Origin: an uncultured Pelagibacteraceae bacterium
GTDB lineage: Bacteria > Pseudomonadota > Alphaproteobacteria > Pelagibacterales > Pelagibacteraceae
DNA: 64,000 nucleotides
Direction of reading: 5' to 3'
Assembly: GCA_902627565.1 (NCBI GenBank)
Contig: CACOJM010000002.1
Span: 62,001-126,000 of the forward strand
Below the pieces are notes generated by a model. That model was given only the letters and a program-made list of their open reading frames with translations, searched no databases and had not been told where the DNA came from. Positions 1 through 61,533 of the stretch are shown piece after piece (position 1 is the first letter of the stretch; every line of letters begins with the position of its first letter). Position numbers and translations under genes: made by a program.

Positions 1-480
1 AAAATTGCGGTGTATACTGGTATTCTTGATGTAACAAAAAATAAAGACGGATTAGCTGCTGTAATGGGTCATGAGATAGCCCATGCAGTTGCAAAACATT
101 CTGTTGAAAGAGCAAGTAGAGGAACACTATTAAATGTTGGAACAAAGATTATAGATATTGCCAGTGGAGGTATATTATCTGATATAAATAGAACAACAGG
201 AATGGATACGGTTGGTTTGTTATCTCAGTTAGGAATTATGAATCCATTTAATAGAAAACAAGAGAGTGAAGCTGATTATTTAGGTATGATTTTTTCATCT
301 TTGTCAGGTTATGATATTAGGGAAACATCAAAAATTTGGGAAAGAATGAAAGAATATAATAAAGGAAAAGCGCCACCCGAATTTATGAGTACTCACCCTT
401 CTGCAGAAAATAGAATTAGAAAAATTAATGAGTGGGAAAATGAGATTATATTAGAATATCCACCACTTAAAATATCTTAG
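1..480 (+). CDS. M48 family zinc metalloprotease, C-terminal part (5' truncated by window)
   Basis: The reading frame is open from base 2-4 onward (first residues KIAVYTGIL, typical of the strand just before the M48 helix), so the true start lies outside the window. The zinc-binding HExxH motif is seen as HEIAH, and a downstream ExEAD motif (ESEADYLG) supplies the third metal ligand. This combination is typical of M48/Oma1/BepA-like peptidases, which in Gram-negative bacteria are usually periplasmic or membrane-attached and degrade misfolded envelope proteins. The end THPSAENRI is also family-typical. The stop lies 6 nt from the 3' end of the convergent tRNA-Lys. The exact subfamily cannot be fixed without the N-terminus. 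Confidence 0.9.
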   Translation, partial: KIAVYTGILDVTKNKDGLAAVMGHEIAHAVAKHSVERASRGTLLNVGTKIIDIASGGILSDINRTTGMDTVGLLSQLGIMNPFNRKQESEADYLGMIFSSLSGYDIRETSKIWERMKEYNKGKAPPEFMSTHPSAENRIRKINEWENEIILEYPPLKIS

Positions 481-2810: not shown

Positions 2811-5389
2811 TAAATTAAATTATCATCAATTTTATTAGCTGAAACAACTTTTTCTTCACCTGATAACTTTATTATTCTTACTCCCTGAGTATTTCTACCT
2901 GCGGTTCTTATCTCTTTTACTGCAACTCTAATTACACGACCTTTGTTTGTTGATATTAATATTTCATCACCTTCGTATACAGGAAAAGATGATGATATAT
3001 CACCATTTCTTGGTGAGTTTATAATGCCAATGATACCTTTTCCTCCCCTATTTGTTACCCTATAGTCAGCATGTGAAGTTTTTTTTCCATAACCATTTTG
3101 AGTTATAGATAAAATAAACTTTTCCCTAGCTTTTATTTCTGACTTTTCATCCTTTGTTTTTTTTCCGACTTTAGATTTATTATCGTTATCAATTATTGAT
3201 AATGATACTATTTCATCATTAGGAGCTAAAACTATTCCTCTAATACCTTTAGATGATCTTCCTTTAAAAATACGTAATTTTTTTGACTCAAATCTTATAC
3301 ATTTACCAAATTTGGTGCTCAAAATGACATCTTGGTCATTTTTACATATCTTAACACCCACTATTTTATCATTTGAGTCTAACTTCATTGCAATTTTACC
3401 TGCAGCGTTTATAGATGAAAAATCCTCAAGACTATTTTTTCTTATTTTTCCTTGAGCCGTAGCAAATACTATCTGATAATTTTTTAATTCTGCCTCATCC
3501 TCGGGAAAAGGCATAATCGAACTTATAGATTGATGACTTTTTAAAGGCAATATATTAAATAAAGATTTACCTTTAGAGGAAGATGAACCAACAGGTATCT
3601 TCCAAGCTTTTAATCTATAGACAAGTCCTTCGGTTGAAAAAAATAAAACTGATGTATGAGTATTAACAGATAAAGTTTGAACAACAGAATCTTCATTTCT
3701 TGTAGTTATACCAGTTTTTCCTTTGCCACCTCTTTTTTGTTGTTTAATATTATTTAAAGAACCTCTCTTAATATAACCTTGTAAAGTAACTGTAATAATA
3801 ACCGACTCTTTTTGGATGGTTTCTTCTATATCGTAATTTAAAACAGCATCTATTATATCTGTTCTTCTTTTAACTGAAAATTTTTCTTTGATATCATTCA
3901 ATTCTTTACTAATAACTTTTAATAATTCTTTTTTAGATGAAATGATTTTTTTGTAATTAACAATTAATTCAGATAATTTTTTTATTTCAATTTCAATTTC
4001 ATTAATCCCAAGAGCAGTTAGTTTTTGTAATCTTAATTCCAAAATTGCATTAACTTGTGGTTCTGACAAATTATAAATTATATTTGATTTTTTATTTTCA
4101 ATTAATGAAATCATTTTTTGTGATTTGTTAACTTTCCATTTTATCTTGAGTAAAGATTTTTTTGCATCATCTGGTGTTTTTGATGATCTGATAATCTTAA
4201 TCACTTTATCCAAGTTTTCGACAGAAACAGATAATCCAATAAGAATATGAGCTCTTTCTTCAGCTTTTTTCAAATCAAATTTTGTTTTTTTTATTACAAC
4301 ATCTTCTCTAAAATTTAAAAAATGAGATAAAAATTCTTTAAGATTACATGTTTGAGGTTTTCCGTTTACGATAGCTAGCGTATTAAATCCAAATGAACTT
4401 TCTATTTGAGTATTTTTATACAATTGTCTTTTGACTGTTTCGGGCTCAACGCCGTTCCTTAGATCTATAGATACTCTTATTCCTTCTCTATTTGACTCAT
4501 CTCTAATATCTTTTATTCCCTCGATTTTTTTTTCTCTAACTAGCTGTGCTATTCTTTCATTTAAAACTGACTTGTTTACTTGATAAGGTATTGATGTGAT
4601 GACTAATCTTTCTCTGCCATTTTTTGCTTGCTCTATAGAAATTTGTCCTCTTACTTTAAATGAGCCTCGACCTTTAGTGTAACCATCTTTAATCATATCT
4701 TTTCCAATTATAACTCCACCTGTTGGAAAATCTGGGCCAGGGATTATTTTCATTAGTTGTTTAATTGTAATATCTTTGTTCTCAATCAAAGCTAAAGTGC
4801 CATTAATTATCTCACCTAAATTATGTGGTGGAATACTTGTAGCCATTCCTACAGCTATTCCTCCAGCACCATTTACTAATAAATTTGGATATTGAGCTGG
4901 TAAAACACTAGGTTCTTTCTCTGTCTCATCATAATTACTTTTGAATTCAATTGTATTTTTTTCAATATCATCAATTAAAAATTGTGATACTTTTGACAAT
5001 CTAGTTTCAGTATATCTCATCGCAGCAGCAGGGTCTCCATCTATTGATCCAAAGTTTCCTTGACCTTCAACTAAAGGTAAACTCATTGAAAAATCCTGTA
5101 CCATACGAACTAAGGCATCATATACTGATTGATCTCCATGAGGGTGATATTTACCTATAACATCCCCCACTATTCTTGCAGATTTTCTAAATTGTTTAGA
5201 CCAATCATAACCACCTTTATACATGGCGTAGAGAATTCTTCTATGGACAGGCTTTAAACCATCTCTTATATCTGGAAGAGCTCTACTTACAATTACACTC
5301 ATTGCGTAAGACAAATATGACGAGCTCATTTCGTCATGCATTGAGATTAATTTTATATTTTTATCGTTTTGATTTTCAGATTTTTGCAT
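2810..5389 (-). CDS. gyrA: DNA gyrase subunit A
   Basis: Breakage-reunion subunit of gyrase, which introduces negative supercoils. At 859 residues it is near the usual length. The winged-helix DNA-binding region carries the catalytic Tyr126 in [10 protein letters not shown]. The beta-pinwheel C-terminal domain carries the GyrA box QQKRGGKG (about residue 550), which separates gyrase from ParC. In the quinolone region ([12 protein letters not shown]) the residue matching E. coli Ser83 is Gln87, while Asp91 (E. coli Asp87) is kept. The gene follows ssb by 5 nt and leads the coaD-cyclophilin-tgt operon. Confidence 0.97.
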
Positions 5390-54073: not shown

Positions 54074-54127
54074 AAGGATATTTTTAATTTATAGCTTTGC
54101 TTTTTATAGATCAATAAATTTATAGAT

Positions 54128-55540
54128 ATGATTGGAAGTTTTAGAAAATTTGCTAAATCAAGATATGCAGGTATTTTAGTTGGAATAATTATTATACCTT
54201 TTGTTTTTTGGGGTATGGGAAGTGTTTTCAGTTCAGGAAATACAAATAGTATTGCTAAGATTAATAAAGAAAATATATCTACCCAAGATTTTATTGATCA
54301 TATAAATCAATCAAAAATACCAACTGAAACCATAAGAGATAATTTAGACCAAAATATAATTGAAGAATTGTTATCAGGTTTAATTTCTACTAAATTGCTT
54401 AATCTAGAGATTAATAAATTTAATATTTCAATTACCCAAAATACATTGCTAAAAAAAATTAAAGGCAATAAGAATTTTTTAGATGAAAACGGTATTTTTC
54501 AAAGAGTTAAATATGAAAAATTTTTGTTAGAAAATAACTTGTCTGCAGCTCAATTTGAAAAAAGATTAAAAGATAGAGAAGAACAAAAAAATTTGTTTGA
54601 TTATATAGGTGCTGGAACTGTATCACCAAGATTTTTAGTAAAGAAATTATATGAAGAAGAAAACAAAAAACTCAATATTGAATTTATTGACTTAAATGAT
54701 TTTTACTCAAAAAAAGAGGATATATCTGATGTAGATATGGAAAAATTTATAAAAGAAAATGAAGATCTATTAAAAATTGATTATCTTGATTTTAGTTATG
54801 CTAAAATTACACCTCAAAATTTATTGGGTGTAGACGAATTTAATCAAGCTTTTTTTGATAAAATTGATCAAATTGAGATAGATATATCTAATGATGTTAA
54901 TTTTAAAACTATAATAAACGGACTTAACATAAAATCTACTACTATAAAAAATTTTAGATTTTCCGAAGATAAAGATCAAATAGAAAAAAAAATATTTGAA
55001 CTTAAAAATAGTCCATTTGACATATTTGAAAATGAAAACGAATATATTCTATATAAAATAAATAAATCTGAAGAAAGAACTCCTGATCTTAGCGATACCG
55101 AAACAAAAGCTGAAATCATACAATTAATTCATCAAAAAAATAAATTCGATTATAATAAAAATTTGATTGATCAAATTACAAATAAAAATTTCACAAATGA
55201 AAAATTTGATGAAATGAGCCAGAATAATATAAGTACAATTACTATTAATTCAGTAAGAGATAATAAAAAATTTGAAATTAATGCAGTAAAACTTCTTTAT
55301 TCCTTACCAGAAAAATCATTTACACTAATTAATGATGAACAAAATAATATCTATTTAGCTAAAATTAAAAAATTTGAAATAGTAGGTTTTACTGAAGATA
55401 ATTATAATAATAATTTGGGAAAACAAAATTCAAATACTAAACAAAGTATTTTAAGATCTTATGACATTCTTTTAAATGACAAATATGATGTTACTTTGAA
55501 CCAAAAAACAATTCAACGAGTCAAAAATTTTTATCAATGA
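54128..55540 (+). CDS. SurA/PpiD-like periplasmic folding factor, membrane-anchored
   Basis: A 470-residue protein with a short cytoplasmic start, one membrane helix (about residues 15-34) and a SurA_N-like region (INKENISTQDFIDHINQ to LEINKFNISIT). This is the layout of PpiD, which helps proteins leaving SecYEG. No clear parvulin PPIase motif could be picked out in the second half, which may be divergent or lost. It occupies the conserved place before trpE in alphaproteobacteria and overlaps trpE by 4 nt. Confidence 0.82.
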   Translation: MIGSFRKFAKSRYAGILVGIIIIPFVFWGMGSVFSSGNTNSIAKINKENISTQDFIDHINQSKIPTETIRDNLDQNIIEELLSGLISTKLLNLEINKFNISITQNTLLKKIKGNKNFLDENGIFQRVKYEKFLLENNLSAAQFEKRLKDREEQKNLFDYIGAGTVSPRFLVKKLYEEENKKLNIEFIDLNDFYSKKEDISDVDMEKFIKENEDLLKIDYLDFSYAKITPQNLLGVDEFNQAFFDKIDQIEIDISNDVNFKTIINGLNIKSTTIKNFRFSEDKDQIEKKIFELKNSPFDIFENENEYILYKINKSEERTPDLSDTETKAEIIQLIHQKNKFDYNKNLIDQITNKNFTNEKFDEMSQNNISTITINSVRDNKKFEINAVKLLYSLPEKSFTLINDEQNNIYLAKIKKFEIVGFTEDNYNNNLGKQNSNTKQSILRSYDILLNDKYDVTLNQKTIQRVKNFYQ

Positions 55541-57568: not shown

Positions 57569-58561
57569 ATGAAAAAATTTATAGAAAAAATTAAGAGTAA
57601 AGAAAATTTATCTTTTGAAGAGAGTAAATCAGCTTTTAAATTGTTGATGGAAGGCAAAGCTGAAGACCAAGAAATATTTGATTTTTTAACACTTTTATCA
57701 GCTAAAGGTGAAGCTTCAGATGAAATAGCAGGTGGAGTTTTTGTTCTGAGAAATAAGTCTAAAAGAGTAAAAGTAGAAAATTGTGTTGATACATGTGGTA
57801 CCGGTGGAGATGGTATGAATACACTTAATATATCTACAGCATCTGCACTTTTACTTGCAAGTATGGGTATTAAAGTAGCTAAACATGGTAATAAAGCAGT
57901 ATCATCTAAATGTGGATCTGGTGACGTATTAGAGGCTTTAAATATTAAAATAAATCTGGAACCAAAAGAAATTGAAGATCAGATTAATAAAAATAATTTT
58001 GGTTTTATGTTTGCACCTAATTATCATAGTGCAATGAAATTTGTTGGTCCAACTAGGAAAAAAATTGGAAAAAGAACTATATTTAATATGATCGGACCTT
58101 TAAGTAGCCCTGCTCTAGTAAAAAGACAAGTGGTAGGTGTCTTTGATCAAAAACTTTTAAAAATATTTGCAAATGCTTTAAATAATTTAGATATTAAATT
58201 TGCATGGATTGTAAATAGTGAGGATGGATTAGATGAAATTTCACCTTATGCCAAAACTAATGTCATTCAATTAAAAGATAATAAGATCTCTGAAATTACA
58301 ATTAATCCAATGGAATTAAATATAAATGCGGATAAATTTGATAATTTAATTGGTAATGATGCAAAATTTAATGCCGATAAAATGATAAATATATTCAAAG
58401 GTGAAGATAATGATTTTTCTAAGGCTGTTTGCTTAAACGCTGCCGCAGGTCTAATTGTAAATGAAACTCATGTCAAATTTGCCGATGCTTATAATAATGC
58501 AAGGGAACATATTTTATCAAATAAAGTTATTAAATATTTAGAAAAAATTCAAAATGGCTGA
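57569..58561 (+). CDS. trpD: anthranilate phosphoribosyltransferase
   Basis: Second committed step of tryptophan synthesis, 330 residues. The PRPP site is DTCGTGGDGMNTLNISTA. Other motifs are KHGNKAVSSKCGSGDVLEAL and FMFAPNYHSAMKFVGPTRKKIGKRTIFNMIGPLSSPA. It overlaps trpC by 8 nt. Confidence 0.96.
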   Translation: MKKFIEKIKSKENLSFEESKSAFKLLMEGKAEDQEIFDFLTLLSAKGEASDEIAGGVFVLRNKSKRVKVENCVDTCGTGGDGMNTLNISTASALLLASMGIKVAKHGNKAVSSKCGSGDVLEALNIKINLEPKEIEDQINKNNFGFMFAPNYHSAMKFVGPTRKKIGKRTIFNMIGPLSSPALVKRQVVGVFDQKLLKIFANALNNLDIKFAWIVNSEDGLDEISPYAKTNVIQLKDNKISEITINPMELNINADKFDNLIGNDAKFNADKMINIFKGEDNDFSKAVCLNAAAGLIVNETHVKFADAYNNAREHILSNKVIKYLEKIQNG

Positions 58562-59345
58562 AAATGTTCTTGAAAAAATAATTCAAAAGAAAAATGAGAA
58601 AATAGTAAATCTAAAAAAAACTATTTCACTTGATTCATTAGATGAAACAATCAGTTCAAATAAATCATTTATTAATTTTAAAGAAAAAATTGAAAATAAT
58701 GTTAAAGAAGATAAATTTTCAGTTATCGCTGAAATTAAAAAAGCAAGTCCTTCAGCTGGTGTAATTATAAAAAATTATGATCCTGTTAATATAGCAAAAA
58801 TATATAATGATAATAAAGCTACTTGTTTATCGGTTTTAACTGAGGAAGATTTTTTTCTTGGAAATATGATGCATATTAGCAAAATTAAACAAAAAATTAA
58901 ATTACCAATTCTGTGTAAAGATTTTTTTGTAGATAAATTTCAGATACCTTTAGCTAAAAGTTACGGAGCTGATGCTATATTAATTATTTTAGCAGGTGTT
59001 AGTGATAAACTTGCTGATGATTTATATAATGAAGCACTTAAATTAAACATGTCAGTAATTGTTGAAGTTCATACTATTGAAGAAGCTAAGAGTGCGTTAA
59101 GATTTAAAGATGCTTTAATTGGAATAAATAATAGAAATTTAAAAACTTTAAAAACTGACATAAATACAACTTTTGATATTTATAATGTTTTAGTTGATCA
59201 CCCTGGTCCATTAATTTCTGAAAGTGGCATTAAAACAAAAGATGAACTTTTAGAACTCTCAAACAAAACATCTATCAAAACATTTTTAATTGGTGAATCA
59301 CTTTTAAAAAATTTAGATAATAATTCTATTTTTTCTGTTCTTTAG
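58554..59345 (+). CDS. trpC: indole-3-glycerol phosphate synthase
   Basis: Ring-closing TIM-barrel enzyme of tryptophan synthesis, 263 residues. It has VIAEIKKASPSAGVI, LSVLTEEDFFLG, LPILCKDFFVDKFQI, GINNRNLKTL and ISESGIKTKDEL. It is not fused to TrpF, and trpF, trpB and trpA are not in this window. In many alphaproteobacteria moaC and moeA follow it; here lexA does. Confidence 0.96.
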   Translation: MAENVLEKIIQKKNEKIVNLKKTISLDSLDETISSNKSFINFKEKIENNVKEDKFSVIAEIKKASPSAGVIIKNYDPVNIAKIYNDNKATCLSVLTEEDFFLGNMMHISKIKQKIKLPILCKDFFVDKFQIPLAKSYGADAILIILAGVSDKLADDLYNEALKLNMSVIVEVHTIEEAKSALRFKDALIGINNRNLKTLKTDINTTFDIYNVLVDHPGPLISESGIKTKDELLELSNKTSIKTFLIGESLLKNLDNNSIFSVL

Positions 59346-60133: not shown

Positions 60134-61533
60134 ATGAAGAAAGTAGCGACTAGATTTGCTCCTTCCCCTACTGGGCCTTTACATATTGGTGGGATAAGGA
60201 CAGCATTATTCAACTGGTTATATTCAAAAAACCAAAATGGAAATTTTTATTTAAGAATTGAAGATACAGATAAAGAAAGATCAAAAGATGAGTATAAAAA
60301 TCAAATTATACAATCTCTTAAATGGATTGGCATAGATCATGATGGTGAAGAATATATTCAATCAAAAAAAATTGACGACCATATAAAAGTTGCTAACGAA
60401 TTATTAAAAAATGGCTTTGCCTATAAATGCTATTGTTCAAATGAAGAAATCGATGAACAAAAAAAAGAGCAAAACAAAAAAAAATACCGTATGTTTATGA
60501 TAGGAAATGGAGAAATAAAGATGAAAAAGAAGCTCCAAAAGATATTCACCCAGTAATAAGGTTTAAAAGTAAAATAGAAGGAAAATCAATATTGAAAGAT
60601 TTAGTTCAAGGCAATGTTGAAATAGAAAATAAAACTATAGAAGATTTTGTTATTTTGAGAAATGACGGTACACCTACATATAATTTATCTGCTTCTGTAG
60701 ATGATCATCAAATGAATATGACACATATAATTAGAGGTGATGATCATAAAATAAATACTTTTAAACAAATACAAATATATGACGCTATGAAATGGGAACT
60801 ACCATCTTTTGCCCATATACCTTTGATACATACTATTGATGGCAAAAAATTATCAAAAAGAGATAAGGCATCAACTTTAGATGATTATTCTAAAATTGGT
60901 ATAATGCCAGATGCATTAAGAAACTACCTTTTGAGATTAGGTTGGTCTTTTAAAGATAAAGAAATATTTTCATTAGATGAAAGTATAAAATATTTTAATA
61001 TAGAAGGAATAGGTAAATCTCCATCAAAATTAGATATGAGCCGAATACTCTCTATGAATGAACATTACATTAAAAATATAAATGAAAAAGATTTATTTGA
61101 TCAATTTATAAATTATTGTCATTTATTTAAAGATAAAATCAAAGAAGATAAAAAAGATAAAATTCAAAAATCTTTAACTATTCTTAAAAACAAAGCTAAA
61201 ACCCTAGAAGATATATTTAATAATTGCCAATATATTGTTGAGGATGAAGTAAAATTCAATAAAGAAGATTTGGCATTGATTGATGAAAAAGCAAAAAAAA
61301 TAATTTCAGAATTTTATATTAAGTTTAAAGAAATAAACGAGCTTAATAGAGAGAATTTAGAACCAATAGTTCAAGATTTAATTAAAACAAATGAGACAAA
61401 TTTTAAAGGTGTGGGACAACCATTGAGAATAGCTTTAACAGGATCAAAATTTGGGCCCGGTATTTATGATATAATAATATCACTTGGTAAAGATGATGTA
61501 GAGAAAAGGTTAACTGATAAGACTATTTCTTAA
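60134..61533 (+). pseudogene. gltX: glutamyl-tRNA synthetase gene split by a frame break at an A-run
   Basis: Charges tRNA-Glu (and, in alphaproteobacteria, usually tRNA-Gln for later amidation). The first frame (60134-60556) has the HIGH-type motif PTGPLHIGGIRTA and runs to AYKCYCSNEEIDEQ, then loses similarity after nine A (60476-60484) and stops. The -1 frame picks up exactly there with IPYVYDRKWRNKDEKEAP and continues to 61533 with DLVQGNV, TYNLSASVDDHQM and the KMSKS-type KLSKRDKAS. One extra A would restore a protein of about 466 residues, the normal length. It is the only gltX in the window. Sequencing error, real mutation or slippage are all possible. The 3' end overlaps convergent lpxB by 24 nt. 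Confidence 0.9.

Follow-up and report, generated by a model that had tools for sequence, protein, structure and literature searches.

A one-base frame break at an adenine run in the gltX gene of a Pelagibacteraceae genome assembly, most readily explained by technical loss of one A

Frame breaks at adenine runs in described systems and at gltX

Among the described systems that come closest to the locus analyzed here are the poly(A) genes of insect endosymbionts whose frame is corrected by slippage. According to the passages cited, eight genes of Blochmannia vafer are frameshifted in A or T tracts, some of them considered essential in Escherichia coli (PMC3017870), and 12-50% of the transcripts of frameshifted genes are corrected in insect endosymbionts (PMC5009743). 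In both E. coli and Buchnera, slippage insertions cluster in A/T runs, and the longer the run, the more frequent they become, in an exponential fashion (cited passage of PMC5574713). In the part of PMC1088944 cited here, the yield of full-length product from an A8 run in human apoB was about one tenth, and slippage at an A9 run is described for dnaX of Thermus thermophilus. A technical counterpart is found in the homopolymer indels of Illumina assemblies made after MDA or WGA-X amplification; the passage cited gives a mean of 3.0 indels per 100 kb for a WGA-X single-cell workflow (PMC9771814). Slightly more deletions are reported for WGA-X reads than for MDA reads, and small-genome P. marinus SAGs tended to show the fewest indels (cited portion of PMC5519541).

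The gene studied here, gltX, lies in the window, i.e., the whole stretch of 64,000 nucleotides that we analyzed from an uncultured Pelagibacteraceae bacterium, and occupies positions 60134-61533 of its plus strand in two frames. The 5′ ORF (60134-60556; 140 aa), recognized from the ORF list, its translation and a match to positions 1-115 of the Pfam profile PF00749, leaves the frame of the family after about 60466 and runs into a stop codon at 60554-60556. The remainder of the gene (60467-61533) is read in another frame, in which a mechanically called ORF begins with TTG at 60592. Hence, the initial annotation had correctly described gltX as split: the ORFs, the translation and the Pfam domains all bear this out, since the catalytic domain PF00749 is divided over both frames (profile positions 1-115 in the first, 158-311 in the second) and the anticodon-binding domain PF19269 resides in the second. 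Both domains of GltX are present across the two frames, while the intact copy of the relative L033 holds them in a single protein; as assembled, the window's gene has no single continuous reading frame, the break lying at 60459-60466. The two signature motifs that had been claimed are also found in the translation: HIGG (60182-60193, plus strand), located in the 5′ ORF, and KLSKR (60847-60861, plus strand), which we take to be the HIGH-type and the KMSKS-type motif, respectively.

The gene is positioned downstream of what is presumably a lexA-like gene and is convergent with a gene that we regard as lpxB-like. The 3′ ends of gltX (plus strand) and lpxB (minus strand) overlap by 24 bases (window 61510-61533), and the same is seen in L033 (3822-3845). 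TrpC comprises 263 aa in the window (58554-59345) vs. 274 aa in L033 (831-1655), and its first half differs as well; given how similar the neighboring genes are, local recombination is possibly responsible for this difference.

Position of the break, selection on gltX and its copy number

A DNA search with gltX in 201 genomes of the genus, including the window's own, matched 185 of them, many over a short length only; among the matches listed, the strong ones had 76-90% identity. Thirty matches were made into loci (29 of them from relatives), to which 80 named loci were added. A single long ORF of 465-471 codons spans gltX in 109 of these 110 loci, a set that contains some genomes twice, and the exception is the window's own locus. 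In each of the five closest relatives compared (L004 and L033-L036), the upstream run consists of nine As, one more than in the window (A8 at 60459-60466, plus strand). The A9 run at 60476-60484, at which the break had initially been placed, does exist, but it has the same length in the window and in all five relatives; aligning the gltX genes of close relatives, a check that the initial annotation had proposed, thus rules this run out as the site of the break and points to the upstream one. The clean joining of the two frames claimed for the downstream run does not hold either: the stretch between both runs reads EQNKKK in the window vs. RAKQKK in the relatives, so that its residues are out of frame.

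In alignments, the run site was readable for 127 of the 137 loci, which correspond to 110 distinct copies. The longest A run at this site was A9 in 60 copies, A7 in 28, A4 in 14, A5 in five and A3 in one; A8 was present in the window alone, and A10 occurred in a single copy as well, that of genome G337. Relatives therefore mostly carry nine As, and otherwise shorter runs interrupted by another base. We preferred this alignment count to a text-pattern count of run lengths, which gave 59 A9 and 29 A7 runs in 116 contexts.

Outside of the run, the codon differences between the window and L033 amount to seven synonymous and one non-synonymous in the first part of the gene, and to 28 and 11, respectively, in the second. 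Changes on the window's own branch comprise 15 synonymous and five non-synonymous ones when L033 is assumed to be the nearest relative and only codons at which L034-L036 agree are considered, although L034 is slightly closer by identity over the whole locus (92.5% vs. 91.7% for L033); the probability of so few non-synonymous changes is 4e-6 under an assumed neutral ratio of 3:1. Both sides of the run are under purifying selection and there has been no long decay, so that any real loss would be very recent, in keeping with the initial view that the decay of gltX is either very recent or only apparent. Such selection is compatible alike with an error, a very recent mutation and a rescue of the broken gene.

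Exactly one GluRS-type gene, recognized as a single PF00749 match, is present in nine of nine relatives tested. This is a stronger argument for a single copy than what the window's own assembly offers: no second GluRS-type gene, for which the initial annotation had proposed to look, was found there, yet this assembly is only 84.66% complete. It also yielded no GatB_N match, even though GatB is present in seven of seven relatives tested, and the absence of a gene from this incomplete assembly is therefore weak evidence by itself. On the search of this assembly, we rejected the presence of a second gltX in it. One GluRS per relative, together with the presence of GatB, implies that this enzyme probably serves tRNA-Glu and, with GatCAB, tRNA-Gln.

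Breaks in related genomes and the expected error rate

A protein search in 399 genomes of the genus, including the window's own, found gltX in 297; the matches listed, which are the stronger ones, all consist of one open frame that no stop codon interrupts. Two gltX matches occurred in six genomes (the window's own, G021, G046, G337, G344, and G355). We searched 22 genomes again, namely the five of these that are relatives and 17 whose match was weak or short; the other genomes with a single match were assessed by match number and E-value only. Genome G337 has an internal gltX break with A10 at the very same run (L200 and L212; G337:C40, about 1006-1070), one A above the usual nine. In G046, gltX is a contig-end fragment with a break at about residue 30, in a stretch of short A runs (L209; G046:C10, about 180-345, minus strand). 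The gene is split between contigs in G344 and G355, and in G021 a complete gene is accompanied by a short additional match. Among the matches listed, gltX is thus internally broken in two of 297 genomes, or in three when G046 is counted.

In a panel of seven neighboring genes on the 137 loci, the best matches covered 685,251 bases, with duplicates counted. In this panel, lpxB of L095 shows a break close to its start, at an A9 run that is A8 in L097 (about 4970-5056, minus strand). Weak candidate breaks were also recorded near locus starts, in trpC of L197 and in trpD of L100.

We scanned 452,462 bases of the window's own genome for coding breaks against ORFs of at least 100 codons from G012 (800,000 of its 1,343,202 bases), contig C5 of G033 and contig C1 of G171, a comparison that is blind near ORF ends. 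Best matches covered 247,284 own bases, which contain 246 A/T runs of eight, 71 of nine and 41 of 10-12 bases, and gltX was the one coding break left in them. Three other candidates, at two places where an ORF lies over apparent tRNA genes, were rejected by eye from the alignments, as was one further candidate that resembles an antisense ORF crossing the boundary between genes. The own ORF at window positions 54110-55537 (contig C2, 116110-117537; 476 codons) has its G171 match divided over two frames, which may reflect a break in the G171 copy or its divergence. A second apparent frame difference between G171 and an own ORF is seen at 45072-45437 of contig C2.

At 3.0 indels per 100 kb, one expects about 0.042 indels per gltX copy and about 12 in 297 copies, of which two or three were found, and 7.4 indels in the 247,284 own bases, where we observed one coding break. 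Because these counts stay below the expectation, error suffices to account for the breaks, although the assembly is cleaner than the benchmark average; given the low indel numbers of the P. marinus SAGs, 3.0 may be too high a rate for this genome. Single-cell style names are carried by 79 of the 80 named relative loci, and many of the titles begin with 'MAG:'; we take the AG-, AH-, and SCGC names to denote single cells.

Readings of the frame break

The cell most probably carried an intact gltX gene, with the A8 run and the frame break introduced by amplification, sequencing or assembly. A run of nine As would have been miscounted by one A during whole-genome amplification, sequencing or assembly, and the resulting A8 would then give a false break of the frame. 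We infer both that the assembly stems from a single cell, like those of the named relatives, and that the loss of the A is technical in nature. In support, the difference is a single base at a single run, it is absent from the relatives read, and the gene is otherwise under purifying selection; comparable breaks at A runs, seen in individual assemblies of relatives, count in the same direction. What counts against a technical error is that the sampled part of the assembly has fewer breaks than the benchmark predicts (one vs. 7.4 expected), and the fact that the same run has been hit twice in the genus is also compatible with a biological hotspot. As judged from the cited passage on amplified Illumina assemblies (PMC9771814), the locus resembles the homopolymer indels found there in that one base is affected, in an A run, unshared and in a gene that is otherwise intact, and the frequency of gltX breaks falls within the benchmark; it differs in that the sampled part lies below that benchmark and in that the single-cell origin is deduced. 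Homopolymer error, named at the outset as the likeliest cause, therefore stands as the best-supported reading, but it had been attached to the wrong run.

We consider it improbable that the one-base loss is real and that enough full-length GluRS arises because the RNA polymerase slips at the A8 run, or the ribosome slips by −1 on the same As. A −1 slip on these As would restore the frame of the family exactly, two of the 297 matched genomes have an indel at this run, purifying selection is seen on both of its sides, and both slippage insertions at A/T runs (passage cited from PMC5574713) and frameshifted genes in endosymbionts (passages cited from PMC5009743 and PMC3017870) have been reported elsewhere. 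With the slippage-corrected genes of Blochmannia and Buchnera the locus shares an AT-rich small genome, a housekeeping gene and a one-base indel in an A run with no other decay (as described in the cited parts of PMC3017870 and PMC5009743); here, however, the run is only A8, which is short in view of how strongly slippage depends on run length, and the indel is unshared with the close relatives examined. The A9 run of T. thermophilus dnaX likewise places some nine As within a coding region, but in the passage cited it keeps the frame and the cell makes use of both products, whereas the gltX frame is broken and the products have no evident use (PMC1088944). A frameshift kept across relatives without decay is not what we see, as L033-L036 are intact. 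The 100 nt downstream hold no stem that stands out (z-score 0.28; 115 of 200 shuffles fold equally well or better). Besides the window, G337 alone, among the matches listed for 297 of 399 genomes, has an indel at the gltX run, and there a base is added rather than missing; with the break also absent from the close relatives examined, the slippage reading offered by the initial annotation gains little. In the literature searched, no paper mentions both SAR11 and transcriptional slippage, and the papers listed on frameshifts, homopolymers and slippage make no mention of Pelagibacter. We regard this SAR11-type lineage as free-living, unlike Blochmannia and Buchnera. Equally improbable is the broader proposition that free-living, AT-rich SAR11-type cells truly carry A-run indels in essential genes (A8 in gltX here, A10 in G337) and tolerate them through slippage of polymerase or ribosome, which would supply enough full-length protein.

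Very unlikely is a real, recent and unrescued mutation, a lethal or nearly lethal allele that was caught by chance in the sequenced cell or strain. Runs of nine As are mutable, such an allele would show up in the genome of a single cell, and gltX shows no other decay; however, a lethal allele should occur at roughly the rate at which mutation produces it, far below the observed two in 297, and no second GluRS-type gene that would cover the loss was found. Programmed −1 ribosomal frameshifting toward two useful products is highly improbable. A heptamer of As in the right phase speaks for it, one that is unremarkable in so A-rich a stretch. Against it, the downstream segment folds no better than shuffled ones (in folding without pseudoknots), the short product would stop within the catalytic domain, and lack of conservation already disfavors it, 109 of 110 loci reading gltX as a single long ORF and 20 of 110 distinct copies having only three to five consecutive As at the site.

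If A-run indels of this kind were real and tolerated, slippage rescue would extend from insect endosymbionts to free-living, streamlined bacteria of the ocean. If the loss of the A from gltX is technical, the reading that we favor, apparent breaks at A runs in essential genes of single-cell SAR11 assemblies should not be taken as signs of gene decay or recoding.
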